Below are positions 37,521 through 40,883 of a stretch of 64,000 nucleotides of DNA, in pieces (the first letter of the stretch is position 1; the number at the start of each line of letters is the position of its first letter). The translations under genes were made by a program, and so were the position numbers. Location: the NCBI RefSeq assembly GCF_007991635.1, contig NZ_BJYS01000006.1:1-64000 (forward strand), written 5' to 3'. Source of the DNA: Adhaeribacter aerolatus. GTDB lineage: Bacteria > Bacteroidota > Bacteroidia > Cytophagales > Hymenobacteraceae. Under the pieces are notes generated by a model. It ran no database searches, was not told the origin of the DNA, and saw nothing but the letters and a program-made list of their open reading frames with translations.

Positions 37521-37528
37521 TATAATTG
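37521..37528 (+). promoter_or_regulatory. Possible -7 element of the phe operon
   Basis: TATAATTG differs by one base from the Bacteroidota -7 consensus TAnnTTTG and lies 18 bp before the leader-peptide ATG. The matching -33 box is not clear, so this is tentative. Confidence 0.3.
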
Positions 37529-37546
37529 CTGCCACAAACACAAATT

Positions 37547-37612
37547 ATGAAAACCAGACAGAACGCTGCTTTTTATTACTACTTCTTTTTTAGTACCTCA
37601 TCGGGGTGTTAA
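37547..37612 (+). CDS. Aromatic leader peptide of the pheA attenuator
   Basis: This 21-codon frame reads MKTRQNAAFYYYFFFSTSSG plus Cys and stops at TAA 37610-37612. Seven consecutive codons (37571-37591) specify Phe-Tyr-Tyr-Tyr-Phe-Phe-Phe, the products of the operon that follows. The design equals that of classical pheL leader peptides: when charged Phe or Tyr tRNA is scarce the ribosome stalls on these codons, otherwise it finishes and lets the terminator at 37650-37678 form. Its stop codon lies inside the candidate antiterminator strand (37601-37614). The peptide itself need have no function. Confidence 0.85.
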   Translation: MKTRQNAAFYYYFFFSTSSGC

Positions 37613-37659
37613 GGAAAAGTATTGCGTTCAAAAACAAGATATAAAACCTAAAGCCCCGA
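37601..37659 (+). promoter_or_regulatory. Candidate antiterminator pairing of the phe attenuator
   Basis: TCGGGGTGTTAAGG (37601-37614) can pair with CCTAAAGCCCCGA (37647-37659): a continuous TCGGGG/CCCCGA helix, a T-G wobble, then TTAAGG against CCTAAA with one bulge and one mismatch. This would occupy the 5' arm of the terminator and prevent its formation. A ribosome ending at 37612 would cover the first strand. Confidence 0.65.
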
Positions 37660-37678
37660 ATTTCGGGGCTTTTTTTTT
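37650..37678 (+). terminator. Attenuator terminator upstream of pheA
   Basis: AAAGCCCCGAA (37650-37660) and TTCGGGGCTTT (37662-37672) form a GC-rich stem (9-10 pairs once a loop is allowed) followed by T to 37678. It ends only 4 bases before the pheA ATG (37683), so it cannot end a previous gene: the previous gene is on the other strand and 400 bp away. It must act in the leader of the phe operon. Confidence 0.92.
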
Positions 37679-37682
37679 AACT

Positions 37683-38516
37683 ATGAATTCAAAACCAGTA
37701 ATCGCTATTCAGGGCGGACCCGCTTCTTTCCACGATGTAGTGGCGCAGCAATATTTTGCGCCTACCGAAATTCAGTCTTTGCCGTGCATGACTTTTCAAA
37801 GAGTTTTTGCCAGCGTTAAAAACGGCGAGTCGGATTTTGGCGTGCTGGCAATCGAGAATTCGCTGGCCGGTAGCATTTTGGGCAATTACTCGCTGCTGCA
37901 CGATTACCCGGTTTCGATTATCGGTGAAGCTTATTTGCCGATTGAACAAAATTTATTGGCTTTGCCGGGACAATCGGTAAAAGATATCCGGGTGGTGCGC
38001 TCCCACCCCATGGCGTTGCTGCAGTGCAGCAATTTCCTGGAAGAGCACCCGCACCTGCAGGCCCTGGAAGCTGCCGATACCGCCGAAAGCGCCCGCGAAA
38101 TCCGGGAAAATAATTTAACCGGGGTCGCCGCTGTAGCCAGCCGGGCTGCCGCCGCCCGTTACGGACTGGATATTCTGGAAGAATGTATTCAGAATTACAA
38201 AGATAATTACACCCGGTTTTTAATTATTTCGCGCCAGGCGGCCAAGGATTTGAGCACGGCTAATAAAGCTTCGGTTAATTTCCGGTTGCACCACCGGGCC
38301 GGCGAACTGGCCAAAATATTAGATGTGTTCCGCGATTTACATATTAACCTGTCGCTGATTCAGTCTATACCCATTATGAGCAAGCCCAGCGAGTTTACCA
38401 TTCTGCTAGATTTGGAGTGGGACAATTACGAAGATTTTAAGGCCGCCATTGCCAAAGTAGAACCCATGACGGTAGAAATAAAAATATTAGGCATCTATAA
38501 AAGAGGAGTTAAATAA
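37683..38516 (+). CDS. pheA: Prephenate dehydratase
   Basis: The 277-residue enzyme converts prephenate to phenylpyruvate in phenylalanine synthesis. The PDT domain (IAIQGGPASFHDVVAQQYF, ENSLAGSILGNYSLL, TAESAREIRENNLTGVAAVA, KDNYTRFLII with the catalytic TRF motif) is followed by an ACT domain (about 195-277: ELAKILDVFRDLHINLSLIQ) that normally senses Phe for feedback inhibition. It lacks a fused chorismate mutase, which is instead on the third gene of the operon. The aminotransferase gene starts one base after its stop. Expression is probably set by the upstream attenuator. Confidence 0.95.
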   Translation: MNSKPVIAIQGGPASFHDVVAQQYFAPTEIQSLPCMTFQRVFASVKNGESDFGVLAIENSLAGSILGNYSLLHDYPVSIIGEAYLPIEQNLLALPGQSVKDIRVVRSHPMALLQCSNFLEEHPHLQALEAADTAESAREIRENNLTGVAAVASRAAAARYGLDILEECIQNYKDNYTRFLIISRQAAKDLSTANKASVNFRLHHRAGELAKILDVFRDLHINLSLIQSIPIMSKPSEFTILLDLEWDNYEDFKAAIAKVEPMTVEIKILGIYKRGVK

Positions 38517-38517
38517 A

Positions 38518-39690
38518 ATGATTATCCCGAAGGCAAATCGCTTAGATCACGTACAGGAATATTATTTCGCCCGCAAGCTGGCGGAAGTACAGAACCTGAT
38601 GGCGCAGGGCCACGATATTATTAACCTGGGCATTGGCGACCCGGATATGCCCGCCTCCGACGAAACCGTAGCGGCCCTGACCGAATCGGCGCAGAACAAG
38701 AAAAATCACGGCTACCAGGCTTACCGCTCTATTCCGGCTTTGCGCAACGCAATGGCTAAGTGGTACCAGCAGGTTTACAGTGTTTCGCTTAACCCCGATA
38801 CCGAAATATTGCCGTTGCTGGGCTCCAAAGAAGGTATTTTTCATATTGCCATGGCGTTCCTAAACCCCGGCGACCAGGTGCTGGTACCAAACCCAGGTTA
38901 TCCGGCTTATGCCGCCGTTACCAAACTGGTAAATGCCGAACCGGTCTTCTTTGATTTGACCGAAGAAAATAACTGGTTACCCGATTTGGATGCGCTCCGG
39001 AAACTAGATACTACCAAAGTAAAACTAATGTGGCTGAACTACCCGAATATGCCAACAGGTGCTTTGGCTTCGGAAGCCGACTTCGAGAAAATAATAGAAT
39101 TTGCTAAAGAACGGCAGATTTTAATTGTACACGACAATCCTTATAGCCTGGTTTTGAACGAAAAAGCGCCCATTAGCATTTTACACGCTAACGGAGCGAT
39201 GGATTGTTGCCTGGAACTGAACTCTTTAAGTAAGTCCTTTAACATGGCGGGTTGGCGCGTGGGTATGGTAGCCGGAAAACAGGAATATATTGATGCCATT
39301 ATTGCCATCAAAAGCAATCTGGACTCCGGTATGTTTTTACCTATCCAGCACGCGGCTATTCAGGCTTTGGCCAACCCCGAGAGCTGGCACGAAGAGCGCA
39401 ACAATGTATACCGCAAGCGCCGCGAACTGATTTACGAACTGCTGGATGTACTCAACTGCAAATATTCGAAAGAAGCGACCGGTATGTTTGTGTGGGGCCG
39501 GGTGCCCGACGAAGTGGAAGACGTGGAAGCCTACTTAAACCAGATATTGTACGAAGCCCATGTTTTCCTGACGCCGGGTAAAATATTCGGCAGCAACGGT
39601 GAGCGCTACGTCCGGGTTTCGGTTTGCGCCACAGAAGAAAATATTCAAAAAGCGATTAGCAACATCAAGAAATTACTAATAAATGCTTGA
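38518..39690 (+). CDS. PLP-dependent class I/II aminotransferase (aromatic)
   Basis: The 390-residue fold-type I aminotransferase has the N-terminal substrate segment INLGIGDPDMPASDETVAAL, YPNMPTGALAS (Asn contacting PLP), HDNPYSLVL (Asp) and the Schiff-base lysine in LNSLSKSFNMAGWRVGMVAG. Its position directly behind pheA with a one-base gap suggests it transaminates phenylpyruvate and 4-hydroxyphenylpyruvate to Phe and Tyr. It resembles the LL-diaminopimelate/aspartate aminotransferase group, so a wider specificity is possible. Confidence 0.88.
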   Translation: MIIPKANRLDHVQEYYFARKLAEVQNLMAQGHDIINLGIGDPDMPASDETVAALTESAQNKKNHGYQAYRSIPALRNAMAKWYQQVYSVSLNPDTEILPLLGSKEGIFHIAMAFLNPGDQVLVPNPGYPAYAAVTKLVNAEPVFFDLTEENNWLPDLDALRKLDTTKVKLMWLNYPNMPTGALASEADFEKIIEFAKERQILIVHDNPYSLVLNEKAPISILHANGAMDCCLELNSLSKSFNMAGWRVGMVAGKQEYIDAIIAIKSNLDSGMFLPIQHAAIQALANPESWHEERNNVYRKRRELIYELLDVLNCKYSKEATGMFVWGRVPDEVEDVEAYLNQILYEAHVFLTPGKIFGSNGERYVRVSVCATEENIQKAISNIKKLLINA

Positions 39691-39779: not shown

Positions 39780-40883
39780 ATGAGTAAACCAACCATCGAC
39801 CTGCTGCCTACTTCAGCCTTAATTAATGAGGACAGGTCACCCCTAATTATTGCCGGCCCTTGCAGCGCGGAATCCGAAGAGCAAGTAATGGAAACGGCTC
39901 GCCTGATTAAAGAAGTACCAGGTGTTACCGTGTACCGGGCTGGTATCTGGAAACCCCGCACGCGTCCGAACAGCTTCGAAGGTATTGGTGTACCCGGCCT
40001 GAAATGGTTAAAGCGGGTAAAACAGGAAACTGGATTAAAAGTAGCCTGCGAAGTTGCCAACACCGCCCAGGTTTTCGAAGCCCTGAAAGCAGGTATTGAT
40101 ATTCTGTGGATTGGTGCTCGTACTACGGTAAACCCTTTCACCGTTCAGGAAATTGCCGATGCTTTGCGCGGCGTAGATATTCCGGTATTGGTGAAAAACC
40201 CGGTAAACCCGGATTTACAATTGTGGTTAGGAGCTATTGAGCGTTTAAACCAGGCGGGTTTAAAACAATTAGGCGGTATTCACAGAGGTTTCTCTACTTT
40301 CGATAATGCCCCTTACCGGAACATGCCGAAATGGAACAGTGCTATTGAATTCAAACGTTTAGTACCAGAGCTGCCTTTAATCTGCGACCCGAGCCACATT
40401 GCCGGTAACCGCGAATTATTGCAACCAATTGCCCAGCGTGCCATGGATTTGGCTTTCGAAGGTTTAATGATCGAAACCCACGTAGATCCATCTGTAGCGT
40501 TGAGCGATGCTTCGCAGCAGGTTACCCCGGCCGATCTGAAAAAATTATTAGCCAGTCTGCGTTTCAGCAAGGTAGATCCCGAAACCGAAGACGATCATTA
40601 TCAACTGGAAGAAATGCGCCGCAACATCGACCAGTTAGATAAAGAGTTAATGGAAGTGTTTGCACGTCGGGCCCGGTTATCGCGTAAAATTGGCGAATAC
40701 AAGAAAGAGCACAACATGGCTATTCTGCAGGTAAAACGTTGGGACCAAATTCTGGAAGATATCCTGGAAAAAGCCAACAAAGAAGGTTTAGACGAAAAGT
40801 TTGTACGTTCCATTTTCCAGACCGTACACCACTATTCTATCAATATCCAGACTGAAATTGTAAACGGTAAAGCCGACGCTTAA
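39780..40883 (+). CDS. Bifunctional DAHP synthase / chorismate mutase
   Basis: The 367-residue protein combines a class I-beta 3-deoxy-7-phosphoheptulonate synthase (residues about 15-265: IIAGPCSAESEEQVMETARL, YRAGIWKPRTRPNSFEGIG, CDPSHIAGNRELLQPIAQRA, IETHVDPSVALSD) with a C-terminal AroQ chorismate mutase domain (about 285-360: MRRNIDQLDKELMEVFARRA, RKIGEYKKEHNM). It supplies both the first step of the shikimate pathway and the branch to prephenate, feeding pheA. An 89-bp gap separates it from the aminotransferase; I see no tyrA gene in this operon. Confidence 0.95.
   Translation: MSKPTIDLLPTSALINEDRSPLIIAGPCSAESEEQVMETARLIKEVPGVTVYRAGIWKPRTRPNSFEGIGVPGLKWLKRVKQETGLKVACEVANTAQVFEALKAGIDILWIGARTTVNPFTVQEIADALRGVDIPVLVKNPVNPDLQLWLGAIERLNQAGLKQLGGIHRGFSTFDNAPYRNMPKWNSAIEFKRLVPELPLICDPSHIAGNRELLQPIAQRAMDLAFEGLMIETHVDPSVALSDASQQVTPADLKKLLASLRFSKVDPETEDDHYQLEEMRRNIDQLDKELMEVFARRARLSRKIGEYKKEHNMAILQVKRWDQILEDILEKANKEGLDEKFVRSIFQTVHHYSINIQTEIVNGKADA

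Follow-up and report, generated by a model that had tools for sequence, protein, structure and literature searches.

A probable four-segment attenuator that would read phenylalanine and tyrosine together, upstream of pheA in Adhaeribacter aerolatus and many other Bacteroidia

The pheA operon of Adhaeribacter aerolatus is, we are strongly persuaded from sequence comparison and modelled folds, controlled by a four-segment ribosome-mediated attenuator. This element would sense charged tRNA-Phe and tRNA-Tyr, and would act on pheA, an aminotransferase gene and a gene for DAHP synthase fused to chorismate mutase. We infer that the operon is regulated by the supply of Phe and Tyr itself, and that in the cell the leader is translated, the ribosome stalls in a supply-dependent manner, base pairing follows the order in which the RNA is made, and transcription is terminated. 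What is new is the apparently widespread dual Phe/Tyr form, together with its putative His and Trp counterparts.

Classical attenuation needs a ribosome close behind the RNA polymerase. The anatomy of the attenuator is conserved across many Bacteroidia, where leaders for several amino acids are seen, and this makes transcription-translation coupling directly testable in this phylum. The element would further extend the range of sensors by one that responds to two aromatic amino acids together, and it is an RNA element that Rfam misses in the window at curated scores. By the window we mean the whole stretch of DNA that was analysed, 64,000 nucleotides in length.

The leader, the terminator and the operon

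The features of the locus are collected in Table 1. Read directly, the leader frame opens with the ATG at 37547 and closes with the TAA at 37610-37612. Its run of seven TWY codons is the only one on either strand of the 64 kb window; 100 shuffles give a mean of 0.01. A GC-rich terminator hairpin follows, in which 37650-37659 pairs with 37663-37672 ahead of nine T, and the T-run ends 4 nt upstream of the pheA ATG (37683). A sequence-only reading of this DNA had described the 21-residue leader with its F-YYY-FFF run, the terminator and a competing pairing before pheA; direct reading and folds confirm all of these.

Table 1. Features of the attenuator and the operon, in positions of the window
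Feature	Position	Strand	Basis
Candidate sigma-A -7 box TATAATTG, one mismatch to TAnnTTTG	37521..37528	+	inferred from sequence
Leader peptide ORF, 21 codons, MKTRQNAAFYYYFFFSTSSGC	37547..37612	+	direct reading; aromatic-rich leader in 141/191 pheA loci
Segment 1, protector strand (37561-37566 and 37580-37599)	37561..37599	+	folds, duplex, synonymous control
Control codons Phe-Tyr-Tyr-Tyr-Phe-Phe-Phe	37571..37591	+	direct reading; Phe and Tyr in 130/130 runs
Segment 2	37601..37629	+	folds, duplex; in relatives, partner swaps and pair counts
Segment 3, antiterminator 3' strands (37633-37635, 37638-37642, 37647-37649, 37653-37659)	37633..37659	+	folds
Segment 4, terminator 3' arm (37663-37672) and T-run (37670-37678)	37663..37678	+	
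pheA, prephenate dehydratase with ACT-like C-terminus	37683..38516	+	Pfam PF00800 E 1.5e-59
Class I/II aminotransferase	38518..39690	+	Pfam PF00155 E 2e-67
DAHP synthase fused to chorismate mutase	39780..40883	+	Pfam PF00793 E 3.8e-40, PF01817 E 2.3e-23

The ACT match of pheA (E 0.00079) lies under its Pfam cut-off. The window operon has no tyrA; the genome carries one PDH_N match, on a different contig, and a leader scan upstream of this tyrA gave no convincing candidate. Among 80 named loci tyrA lies 3' of the aminotransferase gene in 73, the window gene order without tyrA is found in four, and three have neither tyrA nor DAHP synthase within the available stretch. The nearest named locus is that of A. 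rhizoryzae, with a PheA 98.9% identical to the window's. Joint control by Phe and Tyr fits the common tyrA-containing operon, and would have been kept in the lineage of the window.

Alternative pairings and the presumed order in which they form

Segment 2 has two competing partners. In the antiterminator, 37601-37607 pairs with 37653-37659 of segment 3, with a further pairing inward (37612-37614 with 37647-37649) and two small helices; 37650-37659, part of segment 3, doubles as the terminator 5' arm. In the protector, according to folds and duplex calculations, 37603-37621 pairs with 37580-37599 and 37624-37629 with 37561-37566 of segment 1. The protector uses the Phe and Tyr codons themselves and masks the GGGG of segment 2. 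RNA free of ribosomes folds with the protector, both up to 37640 and at full length, and only one of 200 synonymous recodings of the window leader pairs equally well. The earlier reading had found the 1:2 protector unclear and thought that the design might be reduced. The duplex, the folds and the synonymous control rule out a design without a protector for the window, and the pairing covaries in relatives.

The effect of a ribosome was approximated by a footprint that covers 15 nt behind and 12 nt in front of the first base of the A-site. With the ribosome on the aromatic run and segment 4 not yet made, the antiterminator forms at all four codons tested, one pair shorter when the ribosome sits on the last aromatic codon. 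With the ribosome at the stop codon the antiterminator is absent, and the full RNA folds into the terminator.

Two equilibrium results count against this picture. Once the window RNA is complete, the terminator has the lowest energy even when a ribosome is stalled, at 4/4 positions, so the antiterminator must win by forming first. Free RNA that ends at 37660, once segment 3 is out, favours the antiterminator at equilibrium (MFE; P 0.96), hence the protector must also act by forming first. Taken together, these results mean that the switch depends on which hairpin forms first during transcription. The order of hairpin formation is likewise assumed to be decisive in classical attenuators.

The proposed mechanism runs as follows. 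When Phe and Tyr are plentiful, the leading ribosome would reach the stop codon at 37610 and cover segment 2; the terminator would then form and RNA polymerase would stop near 37678. When Phe or Tyr is scarce, the ribosome would stall on 37571-37591 and block the pairing of segments 1 and 2. Segment 2 could then pair with segment 3, which would pre-empt the terminator and let the operon be read. If there is no translation, the protector hairpin would form first and favour termination.

In the window, the probability that segment 2 is paired upstream is 0.47 in free RNA, 0.21 with a stall on the last aromatic codon and 0.32 with a stall on the first. The corresponding values for 42 representatives, sequences with a mutual alignment score of at most 0.62, are 0.63, 0.53 and 0.22; here the first-codon stall releases segment 2 from upstream pairing more than the last-codon stall does. 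The most weighty control codons may differ between lineages.

The same representatives, which are treated as independent in the p-values, were used to compare each element with swapped partners. An element's own 2:3 antiterminator is stronger by a mean of 6.9 kcal/mol (Wilcoxon p 6e-12, 42 representatives), and its own 1:2 protector by a mean of 5.2 kcal/mol (Wilcoxon p 1e-7, 42 representatives). For the window, swapped partners are as good in 5% (antiterminator) and 2% (protector) of cases; taken singly, 25/42 representatives are within the best 5% for the antiterminator and 14/42 for the protector. When the same peptides are recoded at random with synonymous codons, the 2:3 pairing (p 6e-8) and the 1:2 pairing (p 3e-8) both become weaker in the representatives.

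The sequence-only reading had also proposed that base-pair covariation be sought in the leaders and terminators of relatives, and this has been found for 1:2, 2:3 and 3:4. The covariation alignment holds 53 sequences, mostly of the Chitinophagales type, and the helices scored are those chosen on the consensus of this same alignment. The covariation score of each of the three helices was reached by 0/500 shuffles, and all slid versions scored lower. These helix results rest on explicit pair counts. The count of pairs changed on both sides is less telling, as it was reached by 54, 37 and 136 of 500 shuffles for the three helices. A compensatory change can be seen within Adhaeribacter, where locus L003 has AAACGC/GCGTTT and the window GAACGC/GCGTTC.

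Aromatic leaders before pheA in other genomes

We define an aromatic leader as at least six F, Y or W codons out of eight upstream of pheA. The loci comprise the best 30 from 194 genomes of the order, the 80 named loci, 25 new ones from 395 genomes of the phylum and 60 stretches chosen for diversity. This makes 195 loci after removal of L001, a duplicate of the window locus L002. Of these, 191 combine a PheA match with 300 nt or more of upstream sequence; L190 was dropped for want of a PheA match and L061, L085 and L097 for having less than 300 nt. The 191 include the window itself and L032, from a near-identical genome. PheA matches were found in 146/194 order genomes and 325/395 phylum genomes, and the loci read are a part of these, mostly the better ones, so the fractions below are not estimates of prevalence.

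An aromatic leader is present at 141/191 loci, compared with 1/191 on the reverse strand and a shuffle mean of 2.1. One stretch was found twice (L089 and L145), and with one copy removed the count is 140/190. At a stricter threshold of at least seven of eight codons, 129 of the 191 loci have a leader, versus none on the reverse strand and 0.1 in shuffles. These counts bear on the simplest alternative, a constitutive terminator preceded by an AT-rich stretch that has no connection with it and spells Phe and Tyr codons by chance. The stretch upstream of the leader is visibly AT-rich, as this would require, but conservation already contradicts such a chance reading, the alternative pairings covary, and we give it next to no credence.

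Aromatic leaders are common in the sampled Bacteroidia of other orders (39/44) and patchy in the window's own order (21/45), while they are found at 76/77 loci of the named set and 5/25 of other classes of the phylum. The expectation that the leader would be conserved in relatives among the Cytophagales is therefore borne out for 21 of the 45 same-order loci and fails for the other 24; it is absent in several families of the order. The PheA proteins of the five out-of-class loci with an aromatic leader (L112, L113, L117, L177 and L178) share 42-52% identity with that of the window, in the upper part of the range for genomes of other classes. The operon could have been transferred together with its attenuator in these cases.

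The anatomy expected of a ribosome-mediated transcription attenuator is found well beyond the window. A terminator is present in the window and was detected after 130 of the 141 aromatic leaders, the remaining 11 being excluded from the pairing tests. The ORF has clustered codons for the product amino acids, the antiterminator covaries and is mutually exclusive with the terminator, and the 1:2 protector is found in the window and in relatives, its order of formation being assumed.

A different use of the hairpin deserves consideration here, namely that it hides the start site of pheA and regulates translation instead of transcription. The window's T-run, ending so close to the ATG, would suit this. 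Across the 42 representatives, however, the GC stem ends anywhere between 5 and 223 nt ahead of the inferred start of pheA, and we regard translational control as highly unlikely. The T-rich tract is demanded by our terminator search and is hence not independent evidence on this point.

The spacing of the elements agrees with transcription attenuation by a stalled ribosome. In 112/130 elements the run is followed by an exact copy, 5 nt or longer, of the strand pairing with the terminator 5' arm. In 99 of these 112, and in 24/34 representatives, segment 2 starts 7-12 nt past the last aromatic codon, roughly the position expected for the leading edge of a ribosome stalled on that codon. Attenuation by stalling at Phe and Tyr codons, as originally suggested for this locus, draws support from this spacing, from the conservation of the leader and from the three covarying alternative pairings.

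Phe and Tyr occur together in all 130 runs with a terminator and in 42/42 representatives, while Trp is found in 21/130 runs and 8/42 representatives. The leader filter did not force this combination, and a Phe-only run like that of pheL would pass it. The suggestion of joint Phe and Tyr sensing is thus strengthened, also by the presence of tyrA in most of the named operons.

In 45 pairs of similar runs, drawn from loci already filtered for aromatic leaders, 97 codons have changed; 43 changes are synonymous and 41 exchange one aromatic residue for another, so that 84/97 keep an aromatic residue, when equal rates would give about 22% for the two kinds combined. An alternative is a TnaC-like arrest, in which a nascent chain rich in aromatic residues would halt the ribosome via the exit tunnel and sense free Phe or Tyr rather than tRNA charging. 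Such an arrest is conceivable, and the run is indeed strongly conserved as aromatic. Arrest peptides of the TnaC type, however, require particular residues at set distances. The runs differ widely in how many F, Y and W they have and in what order, while the density of these residues is kept, with swaps among the three making up the 41 changes above, and we think such an arrest very improbable indeed.

The attenuator model does not describe every element equally well. The stop codon lies more than 18 nt past the start of segment 2 in 76/129 elements, so that a ribosome at the stop codon need not cover segment 2; termination in such elements may depend on the protector folding again in the wake of the ribosome. 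The probability of 2:3 pairing is higher with a stalled ribosome than with one at the stop codon in 34/42 representatives, but only in 78/130 elements.

Known attenuators and other amino acid operons

At gathering scores, Rfam gives no match in the whole 64 kb window, the T-box (RF00230) included. The best of 56 lax matches (E<=10) in the window is Phe_leader (RF01859) at 37555-37678, which covers model positions 1-125 of 125, with several model pairs flagged as non-standard in the alignment. It scores 39.2 bits, with E 1.7e-5 for 201 bases and 1.3e-5 for 151 bases, where the gathering score is 55. E. coli pheL scores 132.3 with this model, and 3/20 relatives match it at E<=1, all under threshold. 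A search of the A. aerolatus genome for the T-box gave no match at E<=0.001; this search was a weak one, since the control exceeded the cut-off in only 2/14 genomes.

The enterobacterial pheL (RF01859) shares with the window a leader ORF, a protector, an antiterminator, a terminator and pheA downstream. Read by eye, the GGGAGGC strand of E. coli pheL lies 8 nt past the last Phe codon, inside the range of the relatives. The two differ in phylum, in operon and in control codons, which are Phe only in E. coli and both Phe and Tyr in the window. In addition, the antiterminator strand of the window lies inside the coding tail of the leader, before the stop codon, whereas that of E. coli starts after the stop. 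The window element works like pheL but scores under the RF01859 gathering threshold, and is not filed as a member of that family.

Leaders that carry control codons for several amino acids of the same operon are familiar from the enterobacterial ilvL and thrL. Likened without sequence comparison, these share multi-amino-acid sensing with the window leader; theirs concerns branched-chain amino acids or Thr and Ile, not aromatic ones. Work by Lopatovskaya et al. in 2010, cited in PMC4833913, may cover some of the same ground as ours.

A precedent within Bacteroidota is a 2021 Flavobacterium paper (PMC9723704). In the part of it available to us, conserved structured 5' elements without Rfam hits are reported upstream of pheA and hisG in Flavobacterium psychrophilum, the pheA element being conserved in Flavobacteriaceae, along with clues to leader-peptide attenuation before amino acid operons. 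Its pheA element resembles that of the window in phylum, gene, structured 5' region and suggested attenuation, while that part of its text gives no peptide, pairings or distribution beyond the family. The paper is prior art for the general idea of attenuation as far as that text goes, and no other report of a Phe/Tyr leader of Bacteroidota turned up in searches of open-licence PMC papers. A 2010 survey (PMC2965389) states, in the portion at hand, that before its Firmicutes case the authors knew of no leader-peptide system outside Proteobacteria and Actinobacteria except ermC.

Similar leaders precede other operons. In 60 genomes of Bacteroidia hisG was found in 29 and a trpE-family match in 35. 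His leaders (at least four His in seven codons) lie upstream of hisG at 18/29 loci, and Trp leaders (at least two Trp in four codons) upstream of trpE at 17 of the 19 loci with upstream room, both with none on the reverse strand; these counts concern the ORF only, with no terminator criterion. The hisG scan took in 29/30 loci, omitting L236 (a second fragment), and the trpE scan 22/30, omitting L258-L265 (short partial matches), with three of the 22 lacking upstream room. Two of the Trp leaders end at the assigned start of trpE.

Many of the leaders lie close behind a promoter-like box. In 61/130 elements (shuffles 1.0), all of them loci within L002-L178, and in 12/42 representatives (shuffles 0.4), the Phe/Tyr leader ATG is preceded by an exact TAnnTTTG whose first base lies 11-20 nt away. 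The box is likewise found in 9/21 His and 8/14 Trp leaders, at hisG and trpE loci picked for having a leader. Given this consensus and its placement at -12 to -5, both from the available part of PMC9723704, transcription would begin 0-8 nt upstream of those leaders, and their control peptides would be read from leaderless or almost leaderless RNA. For comparison, excerpts of two papers put leaderless mRNAs at 5.5% of those examined in F. psychrophilum (PMC9723704) and 5' UTRs under 10 nt at about 3.7% in B. thetaiotaomicron (PMC7366714).

We lean slightly towards a broader view, that leader-peptide attenuators are the standard control of amino acid operons in Bacteroidia (Phe and Tyr at pheA, His at hisG, Trp at trpE), with a leader ORF that is often 0-8 nt from the predicted start. 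If true, the control peptide would be read from a leaderless or nearly leaderless transcript, and transcription and translation would be tightly coupled in a phylum whose promoters and translation starts are unusual. The window's own leader would not be near-leaderless: the 26 nt from the start of its best TAnnTTTG-like box (one mismatch) to the leader ATG predict about 14 nt of RNA ahead of the ATG. Nearly the same box occurs at a similar place in L032, L033 and L034, and a similar one in L003.

Within the A. aerolatus genome, no convincing leader was seen at a second chorismate-binding gene (C19), two further ilvD copies or a homoserine dehydrogenase gene (C8), nor, by eye, at a thrA-type gene (C50). 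Candidate leaders do occur at three other genes. The hisG leader (L198, C7) ends in HCFHHHHSSHEE, with no terminator passing the search criteria. The trpE-like gene (L199, C16) has the leader MKNITLHTAGWWHLLEN, then a terminator, GCCCAAGT(TCAC)ACTTGGGC plus a T-run. At one ilvD copy (L201 / L206, C50) the leader MNFRHVILSQIIFSVIIDAKRLMV, containing VILSQIIFSVII, comes with the terminator GCGCCATTC(CCGAAA)GAGTGGCGC and a T-run, and makes a candidate Ile/Leu/Val attenuator.
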